Source of the DNA: an uncultured Clostridia bacterium
GTDB lineage: Bacteria > Bacillota > Clostridia > Oscillospirales > Ruminococcaceae
Reading direction: 5' to 3'
Length of the DNA stretch: 36,409 nucleotides
Assembly (NCBI GenBank): GCA_947175385.1
Contig: CAMWMN010000011.1
Location: 1-36,409, forward strand
Positions 1 through 32,592 of the stretch are shown here, in pieces. A program made the position numbers and the translations under genes. How positions within the stretch are numbered: the first letter of the stretch is position 1; the number at the start of each line of letters is the position of its first letter. The notes below the pieces were generated by a model, which did no database searches, was not told the DNA's origin, and saw only the letters and a list, made by a program, of their open reading frames with translations.

Positions 1-197
1 GTTAGTTGTTTGAGCTATAACCATAATCTGCTATTCCGAGAGAAGTTATGGCGCGTTATAACTCAAAGCAACCTATGGGTGACCAGTGCAAATCCGAAAT
101 GTGAGCGGCGCGGCATACCGCGAAGCGGTGTGCCGTGACGCTCAGCAAGCACAAATGAAATAGCTTTGCTATTTCATTTGTGCGGTTTCGGATTTGC
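1..197 (+). repeat. Repeated 5'-UTR element, copy A: conserved upstream block (1-87) plus three-way-junction RNA-like structure (88-197)
   Basis: Outer stem GCAAATCCGAAA (88-99)/TTTCGGATTTGC (186-197). Inner hairpin 102-144. Inner 16-bp perfect hairpin 149-183. About 10 nt before the RBS of the 218 CDS. Near-identical to 655-849. Confidence 0.8.
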
Positions 198-217
198 CAT
201 TAAAATAAGGAGACATT

Positions 218-654: not shown

Positions 655-849
655 GTTAGTTGTTTGGACTATAACCATAATCTGCTATTCCGAGAGAAGT
701 TATGGCGCGCTATAATTCCAAGCAGCCTATAGTCGACCGGTGCAAATCCGAAATGCGAGCAGCTCGGCTCACGCGTAGCGTGAACCGGGTCGCTCAGCAA
801 GCACAAACGAAATAGCAAAGCTATTTCGTTTGTGCGTTTTCGGATTTGC
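655..849 (+). repeat. Repeated 5'-UTR element, copy B
   Basis: Near-identical to copy A. Outer stem 742-753/838-849; inner hairpin 801-835 with a compensatory T-A to C-G change and an inverted loop relative to copy A. Directly before the RBS of the 871 CDS. Confidence 0.8.
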
Positions 850-870
850 TATTAAAATAAGGGGTAATTT

Positions 871-2763: not shown

Positions 2764-2872
2764 TGTGTTGCAACCTATCGAGGTGTAATCCAAACGCGTT
2801 ATAATTCACGCCAACAAATCGGCGATGCAATTTAAGCGCGTTATAACCCTAAACAAGTGTTTGGTAACTAAT

Positions 2873-2989
2873 GCAAATTCAAAACGCGAGCGGCGCGTTG
2901 CACTTTGCAAAGCAAAGTGAAGCGTGCCGCTCAGGCGAGTACAGACGGAAAATGCGAAGCATTTTTCGTCTGTACGGTTTTGAATTTGC
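2873..2989 (+). repeat. Repeated 5'-UTR element, copy C (three-way junction), with degenerate upstream block about 2764-2872
   Basis: Outer stem GCAAATTCAAAAC/GTTTTGAATTTGC (2873-2885/2977-2989). Inner hairpins GAGCGGC..CACTTTGC aaa GCAAAGTG..GCCGCTC and GTACAGACGGAAAATGC gaa GCATTTTTCGTCTGTAC. Directly before the RBS of the 3010 CDS. Confidence 0.8.
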
Positions 2990-3009
2990 CATTTAGATAA
3001 GGAGTTTAT

Positions 3010-3954
3010 ATGGATAGTGATGGCGGTCGAAGTGTAAATGAAAAGGAACACAAGGTGGCGAGGTTTTTCCTCGCGCCGCTTATCGGGCTTAACAAGGGGA
3101 TCTCCGCGCTGCTGAAAAGGGCATTGGGCGCGAATTACGCGGACGTTTCCGAGGAGGAGGTCCGCGATTTGGTGGACGCGCTCGCCAAGGACGAGGACGA
3201 GGACGGAATAGAGGAGAAGTCCGCAGAGATGATAAACAACATCTTTGAATTTGACGACCTCACCGCCGGAGACGTTATGACACACCGCACGTCTGTTGTC
3301 GGTGTGGACGTGAAGTCCATCACGCTCGATGATTTGATTTATCTCGCGCTGGAGATGGGCTTTTCGCGAATCCCCGCGTATGAGGAGAGCGTGGATAAAA
3401 TCGTCGGAATCGTTATCGTCAAGGACTTACTGTGCCTTATCGGTAAAGAGGATTTGTCCGATTTTAATATCGTGGATTTTCTGCGTGACGTGCAGTTTAT
3501 TCCCGAGGCTTGCAGCGCGTCCGATATTTTCAGGATCCTCACCGAAAACCGCGCGGGTATGGCGGTGGTGGTGGACGAATACGGCGGCACGGCGGGAATC
3601 GTTACGTTGGAGGACATAATCGAGGCGGTTATGGGCAATATCCAGGACGAGTATGATGACGAACAGCAGTTGATTACCAAAATCGGAAACCAAGTGTATG
3701 AGGTTTTGGGCGAGGCAGATCCCGATGAGGTGTTTGCGCTGTTTGGCGTGGAGCTGCCCGAGGATCACGAGTATGAAACCGTCGCGGGATTTGTTGCGGA
3801 TAAGCTCGGCTATATCCCCGAGGATACGGACGGAACACACCGCGCGTCGGTTCTGCCGTCCGTGGATTATGAGGGAGTAAAGCTGGTAGTTATGCGGGTC
3901 GAGGACAGAACAATGCGGAAAATCCGCGTGATTAAAATGCCCGAAAAGTCATAA
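3010..3954 (+). CDS. hemolysin/CorC-type CBS-domain protein (CorC_HlyC C-terminal domain)
   Basis: Two CBS regions (DVMTHRTSVVGVDV...; ENRAGMAVVVDEYGGTAGIVTLEDIIEAVMGNIQDEYD) and a C-terminal transporter-associated domain. Confidence 0.92.
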   Translation: MDSDGGRSVNEKEHKVARFFLAPLIGLNKGISALLKRALGANYADVSEEEVRDLVDALAKDEDEDGIEEKSAEMINNIFEFDDLTAGDVMTHRTSVVGVDVKSITLDDLIYLALEMGFSRIPAYEESVDKIVGIVIVKDLLCLIGKEDLSDFNIVDFLRDVQFIPEACSASDIFRILTENRAGMAVVVDEYGGTAGIVTLEDIIEAVMGNIQDEYDDEQQLITKIGNQVYEVLGEADPDEVFALFGVELPEDHEYETVAGFVADKLGYIPEDTDGTHRASVLPSVDYEGVKLVVMRVEDRTMRKIRVIKMPEKS

Positions 3955-5660: not shown

Positions 5661-5686
5661 GACCGCTCCCGAAAGCGGGAGCGGTC
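5661..5686 (+). terminator. Rho-independent-type hairpin downstream of nth
   Basis: GACCGCTCCCG aaag CGGGAGCGGTC perfect 11-bp stem. Confidence 0.7.
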
Positions 5687-5790
5687 AGACTGTCGATAAA
5701 CCCTCATCTGCGTCGTCAGGGGTTTGTCGGCAGCCATAAAGGCTAGCCGACAAGCCGCTTCCTAGCATCTGAGGGCTTCTCGACAGTCTG
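5686..5790. repeat. ~105-bp intergenic palindromic element (MITE-like or structured RNA)
   Basis: Termini CAGACTGTCGA/TCGACAGTCTG; inner CCCTCA/TGAGGG; apical TTGTCGGC-AGCC-ataaa-GGCT-GCCGACAA. Confidence 0.65.
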
Positions 5791-5821
5791 AAAGGTGACT
5801 TTTTATACAAGCGGGTTTGGT

Positions 5822-14182: not shown

Positions 14183-14380
14183 GGCTTTTTGGCATATTTT
14201 CTTTTCAGCATTTCCGCCTAGTAGGACTACGGTTCTTATGCAACCTCACAATAAGCTCCGCTTCGCCTTTGCCTACCCAAATTCGAAGTTTCATCACTTG
14301 CTCCCATCGCTACGACTGTTAAGTTTCGTCGTTGAGAGTCAGCTGCTTTCGCTGCCTGCATAACAGCTTTCACTGTTTCT
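14160..14380 (-). ncRNA. Candidate leader RNA / small RNA with short ORF (14236-14361, 41 aa) ending in a terminator
   Basis: Minus-strand TTGACA (14410-14415)-17 nt-TATAAT (14387-14392) and terminator hairpin 14163-14190 followed by T6. Confidence 0.6.
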
Positions 14381-30561: not shown

Positions 30562-30585
30562 AATAGTTTACTCCTTATTTTAATG

Positions 30586-30680
30586 GCAAATTCAAAAACA
30601 CGCTCTTGAAATGCTGCGCAGCGGCATTTCAAGACCGTTCGCTGAGCGACACGTTACACCGCTTCGCGTTTTGAATTTGC
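30586..30680 (-). repeat. Repeated 5'-UTR element, copy D (three-way-junction type)
   Basis: Outer stem 30586-30597/30669-30680 (GCAAATTCAAAA/TTTTGAATTTGC); inner hairpin TCTTGAAATGC..GCATTTCAAGA (30604-30634); on the minus strand directly before the hydA RBS. Confidence 0.75.
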
Positions 30681-30717
30681 ATTTCACCCCTAAGACTTGA
30701 CGTGAGTTATAGAGTGC

Positions 30718-32592
30718 TTAGCTCTTGCTGATCGCGCCGAACTTACAATTAGACGCGCAGACGCCGCACTTGATACACTTGTTGGTGTCAATTTTGAACG
30801 GGGATTTGATTTCGCCGCTGATAGCTCCAACGGGGCACTTCTTTGCACACAGCGAACAGCCCTTGCAGAGCGCGGGATCGATCTTGTATGCCAACAGGCT
30901 CTTGCAGACGCCTGCGGGACAGCGCTTGTCCTTAACGTGCGCCACATACTCATCTCTGAAATATCTCAGCGTGGACAAAACGGGGTTGGGTGCGGTCTGT
31001 CCGAGTCCGCACAGAGCGTTGTCCTTTATGTAGTAGCAGAGCTTTTCGAGCTTGTCGAGATCCTCCATTGTCGCCTTGCCCTCGGTGATTTTCGTGAGTA
31101 TCTCGTACATTCTCTTTGTGCCGATTCGACAAGGAGTACACTTTCCGCAGCTCTCGTCAACGGTAAATTCGAGGAAGAACTTGGCAATGTCTACCATACA
31201 GTTGTCCTCGTCCATTACGATAAGTCCGCCCGAACCCATCATAGAGCCAATGGAAATCAAGTTGTCGTAGTCAATCGGAATATCCAGATGCTGAGGAGGA
31301 ATACAGCCGCCGGATGGTCCGCCCGTCTGAGCTGCCTTAAACTTCTTTCCGTTCGGGATTCCGCCGCCGATGTCCTCAATAACCGTGCGGAGGGTCGTTC
31401 CCATCGGAACCTCAACAAGTCCCGTGTTGTGGATCTTACCGCCCAACGCGAATACCTTTGTACCCTTAGATTTCTCCGTACCCATTGACGCGAACCACTC
31501 TGGTCCCTTCAGGATAATCTGGCACACGTTCGCGTAGGTTTCAACGTTGTTCAGAATCGTGGGCTTCGCGAACAGACCCTTAACAGCCGGGAACGGCGGA
31601 CGGCATCTCGGCTCGCCGCGGTTGCCCTCGATAGAGGTCATCAGCGCGGTTTCCTCGCCGCAGACGAACGCGCCCGCGCCAAGTCTGAGCCCCAGACGGA
31701 AACTGAATCCCGTGCCGAAGATGTTATCTCCGAGCATTCCTGCCTCTTCAGCCTGCTTGATAGCGATTTCCAGACGCTCAACGGCAATCGGATACTCCGC
31801 TCTTACATAGATATATCCTTGGTTCGCGCCGATTGCGTAACCCGCGATAGCCATTGCCTCGATTACGGAATGGGGGTCGCCCTCCAAAACGGAGCGGTCC
31901 ATAAACGCGCCGGGGTCGCCCTCGTCCGCGTTGCAGCAAACATACTTCTGCTCGTTTTGCGAAGCCTTGGCAAACTGCCACTTGCGCCCGGTGGGGAATC
32001 CCGCGCCGCCGCGTCCGCGCAGTCCCGACTTCAGCAGGACATCGATTACATCGTCCTGCGACATTGATGTCAGAACCTTATTCAGTGCCTGATAGCCGTC
32101 ACGCGCGATGTACTCCTCGATGTGCTCCGGGGAGATAAGTCCGCAGTTGCGCAGCGCAACACGGTGCTGGTGCGCGTAGAACGATGTATCGTTCAGCGAC
32201 TTGATTGTGTCACCGTCAACGGTTTCCGCATAGAGGTACTTCTTTACGGGAATACCGTTCTTGAGGTGCGATTCCACGATTTCGGGAATGTGTGCCAGCT
32301 CTGTCTTGGAGTAGAATGTACCCTCGGGATACACGATCATAATCGGACCGAGCGCACACAGACCAAAGCAGCCCGTCTTTATGATATTTACCTTGCCCTC
32401 TAAGCCCTGAAGCTTGATTTCCTCTTCGAGTTTCTCTATGATTTTCATAGATCCGCTGGAGGTACAGCCCGTACCGCCGCAGACCAGAACGTCCTTAACG
32501 CCGTTATCCTTGCCCTCGACGCGGACGTTTACGACCTCCGCCGCCTTGGACTTAATGGCATTAAGCTCATCTAAATTTCTAATTTTATCCAT
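30718..32592 (-). CDS. hydB: NuoF-like/HydB subunit of electron-bifurcating hydrogenase
   Basis: Thioredoxin-like 2Fe-2S N-terminus, GLRGRGGAGFPTGRKW, NADEGDPGAFMDR, C-terminal 2x4Fe-4S ferredoxin domain. Confidence 0.94.
   Translation of the reverse strand: MDKIRNLDELNAIKSKAAEVVNVRVEGKDNGVKDVLVCGGTGCTSSGSMKIIEKLEEEIKLQGLEGKVNIIKTGCFGLCALGPIMIVYPEGTFYSKTELAHIPEIVESHLKNGIPVKKYLYAETVDGDTIKSLNDTSFYAHQHRVALRNCGLISPEHIEEYIARDGYQALNKVLTSMSQDDVIDVLLKSGLRGRGGAGFPTGRKWQFAKASQNEQKYVCCNADEGDPGAFMDRSVLEGDPHSVIEAMAIAGYAIGANQGYIYVRAEYPIAVERLEIAIKQAEEAGMLGDNIFGTGFSFRLGLRLGAGAFVCGEETALMTSIEGNRGEPRCRPPFPAVKGLFAKPTILNNVETYANVCQIILKGPEWFASMGTEKSKGTKVFALGGKIHNTGLVEVPMGTTLRTVIEDIGGGIPNGKKFKAAQTGGPSGGCIPPQHLDIPIDYDNLISIGSMMGSGGLIVMDEDNCMVDIAKFFLEFTVDESCGKCTPCRIGTKRMYEILTKITEGKATMEDLDKLEKLCYYIKDNALCGLGQTAPNPVLSTLRYFRDEYVAHVKDKRCPAGVCKSLLAYKIDPALCKGCSLCAKKCPVGAISGEIKSPFKIDTNKCIKCGVCASNCKFGAISKS

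Follow-up and report, generated by a model that had tools for sequence, protein, structure and literature searches.

The four structured repeats in the window (the whole stretch of DNA analysed here, 36,409 nt, contig 11 of the host genome G000, which comprises 2.47 Mb in 171 contigs) are best explained, with a probability of about 0.6, as copies of a genus-restricted, structure-defined, non-autonomous MITE-like element that acts as an insulated mRNA leader. The usual view of small mobile repeats is that they survive where they are least harmful; the present family occupies the place with the most influence on translation and keeps an exact RNA architecture there. An estimated one gene in ten is led by a copy (~260 copies for about 2,400 genes), and turnover is so fast that 92%-identical genomes bear different versions before the same gene. 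The family therefore offers an unusual natural test of a mobile repeat as an mRNA leader, its three-armed fold being kept while the letters change almost completely.

The copies in the window and their neighbours

The initial annotation placed four copies of a three-way junction (3WJ) in the window, and a covariance model (CM) built from 19 copies recovered exactly these four intervals, which are listed below with the sequences adjoining them.

47..87, + strand: ~41-nt TATAA unit adjoining copy 1 (TATAA 57-61), with a second unit upstream (TATAA 16-20)
88..197, + strand: 3WJ copy 1, outer arms GCAAATCCGAAA / TTTCGGATTTGC (CM 94.3 bits; MFE -75.5 kcal/mol, z -11.5)
198..217, + strand: copy 1 tail CATTAAAATAA, GGAG (209-212) and spacer to ATG 218 of the bPH_2 gene
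701..741, + strand: ~41-nt unit adjoining copy 2 (TATAA 711-715; preceding TATAA 670-674)
742..849, + strand: 3WJ copy 2 (CM 82.9 bits; MFE -68.6 kcal/mol, z -11.1)
850..870, + strand: copy 2 tail TATTAAAATAA and GGGG, then ATG 871 (222-aa protein without a Pfam family)
2832..2872, + strand: ~41-nt unit adjoining copy 3 (TATAA 2842-2846; preceding TATAA 2800-2804)
2873..2989, + strand: 3WJ copy 3, outer arms GCAAATTCAAAA / TTTTGAATTTGC (CM 80.0 bits; MFE -75.1 kcal/mol, z -10.3)
2990..3009, + strand: copy 3 tail CATTTAGATAA and GGAG, then ATG 3010 (CorC_HlyC/CBS protein)
30562..30585, - strand: copy 4 tail CATTAAAATAA, GGAG and spacer, then ATG 30561 (hydA)
30586..30680, - strand: 3WJ copy 4, hairpin 1 degenerate (CM 39.6 bits; MFE -43 kcal/mol, z -4.8)
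30681..30718, - strand: TATAA unit adjoining copy 4, starting just past the stop codon of the upstream gene and part of the insert by empty-site comparison

The TATAA-bearing units of ~41 nt stand in tandem at copies 1–3, and the tail motif (at most two mismatches) follows all four copies. This tail had been taken for the ribosome-binding site, and it does follow every copy, but at hydA the YATTAAAATAA belongs to the inserted unit and the GGAG pre-exists in relatives without the insert. The downstream genes are those originally named (PH-domain, hypothetical, CorC-like and hydA), the Pfam check giving a bacterial PH domain after copy 1, CorC_HlyC and CBS after copy 3 and an Fe-only hydrogenase after copy 4, which is located between a NuoF-like gene and hydA. 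When the whole window was searched against Rfam at the gathering score, no family matched any of the four copies, and at a lax threshold the surroundings of copies 1–3 yielded nothing except one weak match, to NrrF at 2940-3086, which was rejected because it lies on the opposite strand and scores well under the threshold. Elsewhere in the window, a drum RNA (RF02958) at 14189-14299 (- strand) scored 55.1 bits, which exceeds its gathering score.

Fold, copy number and placement

The shared plan consists of a 12-bp outer stem, a 0-nt joint, hairpin 1, one A, hairpin 2 and GG. Exactly two inner helices, making a 3WJ, were found in 195 of the 205 copies parsed, and within these 195, J0, which links the outer stem to hairpin 1, was 0 nt in 175 copies, J12, which links the two hairpins, was one A in 169, and J3, the final joint, was GG in 149 and GT in 26. 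The 12-bp outer arms are terminal inverted repeats, perfectly complementary in 127 of the 195, and fall into many families (GCAAATTCAAAA, GCAAATCCGAAA, GCAAATTGCGAA, GAAATTCCGAAA and others). An outer stem of 12–13 bp enclosing inner hairpins had been described; two inner helices are indeed present in all four copies, the stem itself is 12 bp, the next base pairs into hairpin 1, and hairpin 1 of copy 4 is degenerate. Core length is mostly 90–120 nt, with extremes of about 65–180 nt among full-length matches, and coding capacity is excluded by size only.

Changes of sequence with pairing kept, as first proposed from the four copies, were confirmed in the 19-copy set, with 95.3% of cells paired, 35 of 45 pairs changed on both sides and a covariation score of 0.514, compared with 0.181 when shuffled and at most 0.10 with the partner slid. 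Copies from other species of the genus, in a structure-fitted alignment with some rows in antisense, had 44 of 45 pairs changed on both sides (score 0.553). Hairpin 2 sequences recur with different arms and a different hairpin 1, indicating that modules are shuffled between copies. Copies in other species have a consensus related to the ~41-nt unit ahead of them. Folding of each copy on both strands showed more G.U pairs in the inner helices of the sense strand, where G.U exceeds A.C, with counts of 113 vs 40 in the first 67 copies, 160 vs 56 in G000 and 222 vs 39 in the close relative G018. This excess stems partly from wobble pairs inherited at set positions of hairpin 1; after removal of the columns with more than 20% wobble, G.U/A.C values of 116/55 (columns p = 0.16), 121/29 (p = 3e-4) and 103/18 (p = 5e-4) were obtained for G000, G018 and the other species, respectively. 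In copies that are kin by descent, the wobble excess points to a sense single strand, which may be RNA or folded single-stranded DNA alike.

The 5' arm pattern gave 184 matches in G000 and 7 for the reversed control, which excludes chance, and the 19-copy model found at least 148 copies in this genome, where 150 candidates at most were scored. A G000 sample of 826 kb (33% of the genome) held 86 distinct places, or ~257 when extrapolated genome-wide, and 119 copies were found in 996 kb of G018, so that a genome may carry up to about 250–320. A second model (R2), made from 103 copies of several species, detected the element in 14 of 41 genomes of the genus (1 to at least 98 copies each); with stricter filters and 16 candidates scored per genome, 245 genomes from elsewhere in the class gave no copy. 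Repeats are lost from fragmented assemblies, which makes these counts lower bounds. Among the genomes examined, the family is thus patchy and restricted to one genus. An exact pattern search outside the host returned one relative and a single Flavobacterium match, the latter taken as chance; a phage origin was rejected, viral contigs being without the exact tail/arm pattern, and two negative genomes scanned with a de novo 3WJ finder gave only matches resembling noise by eye. On the HydA tree, presence and absence need 7 changes, at least 5 of them on well-supported branches. The sisters G006 and G013 have near-identical HydA (tree distance <0.01) yet 39 and 2 copies, respectively, a gap due either to very recent amplification or loss, or to assembly drop-out.

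In G000 and G018, the distance from the end of the 3' arm to the start codon has a median of 22–23 nt (quartiles 21–30), most copies ending 21–26 nt ahead of it. A sense Shine-Dalgarno sequence (SD) and start were found within 45 nt for 68 of 86 copies in G000 and 91 of 119 in G018, compared with 1 and 0 in antisense. The downstream gene, as called by a crude gene finder, is co-oriented in 73 of 83 cases (G000) and 110 of 118 (G018); about three quarters of copies also have the upstream gene on their strand, which places many of them within operons. The genes led include purA, pyruvate kinase, uppP/bacA, Sir2, dnaG, fabD, a class I tRNA synthetase, accC and glutamine synthetase. The argument that unrelated downstream genes speak against a ligand-specific riboswitch therefore holds; the genes are not of one pathway, as those of a metabolite riboswitch would be. 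In the sister species G006 and G023, most copies are not ahead of an SD in the modelled orientation; the 5'-UTR position stated originally is accordingly not obligate for the element.

The SD is located outside the 3WJ and its pairing is independent of it, the unpaired probability being 0.60 with the 3WJ and 0.58 without, and the outer stem formed in 144 of 159 whole leaders when these were folded. The suggestion of a thermosensor found no support, as the SD is not sequestered in a meltable stem. Pairing between the upstream unit and the tail showed no excess (own -5.18 kcal/mol, swapped partners -5.22 kcal/mol), and SD sequestering by the upstream unit was rejected on this ground.

Mobility and turnover

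Long matches between the genomes G000 and G018, 374 kb in all, show 91.7% identity. Among the G000 copies whose orthologous place was sampled, 36 are also filled in G018 and 18 are not; reciprocally, 35 G018 copies are shared with G000 and 12 are not. The hydA site is filled in G000, and G018, with a 98% identical HydA, has only TAAcgggagaggagtataaattattATG; short native spacers in most other genus members examined indicate that the empty site is ancestral and that the window copy is an insertion. In G021, the same site carries its own, different tandem element, the first unit of which surpasses every shuffled version in folding as a 3WJ (z -3.6), whereas the second does not stand out. About ten further differences between G000 and G018 are insertion-type, the empty site stopping at the SD or close to it, and four others resemble internal deletions leaving remnants (sites read by eye). 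Shortness without coding capacity, terminal inverted repeats, high copy number and insertion polymorphism were all found, as in a MITE. The preference expressed in the initial annotation for a mobile or amplified cis-acting mRNA element, or a MITE-like repeat of 5' UTRs, is supported by the further copies in the host, the strong covariation in both larger alignments, an orientation relative to genes that is far from random in the host and the place of the element outside any Rfam family.

Where a site is shared, the flanking genes are ~92% identical, compared with a median of ~65% for the 3WJ and ~64% for the 41-nt unit. Shared-site elements are as divergent as random paralogues, only 2 of 36 reaching 99%; copy 2 and its G018 orthologue, for example, are 68% identical beside a gene that is 98% identical. 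Paralogues with 95–100% identical 3WJs have different 41-nt units and tails, and tandem pairs are 97–99% identical. Either other copies have moved into old sites, or favoured genes acquired a different copy in each lineage. One clear flank repeat of ~9–10 bp was seen at L032:8862, and for copies without an upstream unit the flank match was 6.88, against 6.51 ± 0.13 for shuffled partners, with no excess in the rest; target-site duplication as a general rule is unsupported by this comparison. A more far-reaching proposal, offered tentatively and at somewhat less than even odds, is that the element is maintained by its fold, prefers the slot just upstream of SDs, swaps helices and replaces itself faster than genes diverge, so that leaders would be rewritten genome-wide with their architecture preserved. 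A different MITE-like element, with ends CAGACTGTCGA...TCGACAGTCTG, lies next to a terminator hairpin at window positions 5685-5809; it is missing from the same place in G018, and copies occur elsewhere in G018 and G000.

Mechanism, competing explanations and related repeats

The mobile unit would comprise the ~41-nt TATAA unit (often tandem), a ~100-nt palindromic core with 12-bp terminal inverted repeats and YATTWARATAA. Moved by a presumed enzyme, it would settle in the gap that separates one gene from the native SD of the following one, with sense orientation nearly throughout in the host species; the following gene would thereby acquire it as a 5' or intercistronic leader. The RNA is predicted to form a self-contained 3WJ whose junction is fixed (0 nt / A / GG), with the SD left free, and such an insulating leader may determine the fate of the downstream cistron. 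The operon mRNA could be cut around the AU-rich unit and the new 5' end shielded from 5'-to-3' decay, or a shared factor could bind at the junction. The insulating leader is favoured because the SD is free, the operon position is common and only the architecture is kept; since most copies are off the SD in G006 and G023, the leader role may reflect only which insertion sites are tolerated. The natural controls make it testable whether a selfish repeat can become a general mRNA leader, and whether the RNA or the DNA fold is selected.

The main null is a selfish repeat tolerated before SDs, that is, a purely selfish MITE/REPIN-like DNA repeat whose fold would serve transposition (as a cruciform or folded single strand) and which would survive by SDs either because it is harmful elsewhere or because its target is AT-rich with polarity. 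It would account for the insertion polymorphism, the patchy distribution (5 or more changes on the HydA tree, sisters with 39 and 2 copies), the perfect outer arms in 127 copies and the copies outside leaders in G006 and G023. It is nevertheless judged rather unlikely, as the near-absence of antisense copies at SDs (1/205 in G000 and G018) would need a strongly polar target or selection, and loci are kept while their sequence is replaced. Moreover, Y1 transposase (PF01797) had no match in G000 or G018, the two richest genomes, and RAYT/IS605-type single-strand transposition was rejected for this reason.

The main functional rival to the insulated leader is a junction-binding factor: one RNA-binding protein or ligand would recognise the 3WJ and unite hundreds of genes in a single post-transcriptional regulon. 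The invariant junction A and GG, the fixed joint lengths with helices free to vary, and the sharing of the architecture by several species with different arms are consistent with this, as are targets that are unrelated housekeeping genes. An alternative fold sequestering the SD was not found, however, the unit and tail show no matched pairing, and the same gene occurs with or without the element in close relatives, which is odd for an essential regulon; such a common regulatory RNA seems slightly less probable still than the null.

That the TATAA unit is the active part, a portable promoter with the 3WJ as passenger, is quite improbable. TATAA is fixed at -31 from the 5' arm and repeats in ~41-nt steps (peaks at -31 and -72, plus -112 in G018, in about 200 copies), and at hydA the unit and 3WJ were inserted together. 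Against this, the aligned upstream consensus has no conserved -35 at the right spacing, the unit precedes about 80% of copies and about 20% have no recognisable one, and the covariation of the 3WJ would be left unexplained. Copying of folded leader RNA to DNA with insertion upstream of SDs would explain the near-complete sense orientation in G000 and G018 and the sense-strand wobble excess, but is highly improbable, and reverse-transcriptase mobility was rejected, since PF00078 (RVT_1) does not follow copy number and is absent from G006, G023 and G033, which carry 39–98 copies. No transposase or autonomous parent turned up in searches that covered the Y1_Tnp and RVT_1 families, neither of which tracks the element.

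Several known systems resemble the insulated leader proposed here in part. The ERIC/RU repeats of enterobacteria are non-autonomous, palindromic, MITE-like mobile repeats of ~100–130 bp with many intergenic copies (PMC2759123, PMC2229807), and ERIC, depending on its orientation, can cause transcripts to be cleaved within operons (reviewed in PMC3049150). The present element is likewise small, palindromic, non-autonomous, mobile and abundant between genes, and differs in being a fixed-junction 3WJ conserved mainly through pairing and set in sense at a fixed distance before SDs. Pneumococcal BOX, RUP and SPRITE are also small, modular interspersed repeats with extensive base pairing, believed to influence the genes transcribed with them and over-represented between convergent genes (PMC3049150), whereas the element described here lies mostly immediately before SDs (in two species) and has hairpin modules shuffled between arms. 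REP/REPIN sequences with RAYT (TnpA-REP) are amplified palindromes for which structure is a key feature, as it is here, and recognition is of the single strand (PMC3116915, PMC8266576); the present genomes G000 and G018 have no Y1 transposase, and the core is a ~100-nt 3WJ. Riboswitch-type leaders share a structured, covarying 5' leader upstream of the SD; the element differs from them in its unrelated genes, the lack of an SD-sequestering alternative in the folded leaders, its mobility, its hundreds of copies and its patchy occurrence in one genus. In the open literature, with most subscription journals outside its scope, ERIC/RU, BOX/RUP/SPRITE and REPIN were found as analogues and none of the reports described this element, a weak sign of novelty.

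Other structured repeats accompany the family. An extra hairpin module (GCGGCATCCGTGCCGC / GGGCGGTCGC-like) is nested in hairpin 1 of some 3WJ copies and is present in other repeats too, and a second class of 3WJ, with arms such as AAAATCCAAAA / TTTTGGATTTT, a short first hairpin and a long second one, is also found directly before SDs.

L045:17315-17484, L131:17742-17913 and L191:19700-19869: GCGGCATCCGTGCCGC / GGGCGGTCGC-like module
L031:14318, L039:13659, L045:4458, L050:14130 and L049:5967 (some coordinates on strand-oriented sequence): second 3WJ class

A further repeat, with ends GGCAACACCGCACAA...TTGTGCGGTGTTGCC, occurs in L131 and L204 of G018 and was once found inserted within a 3WJ leader.
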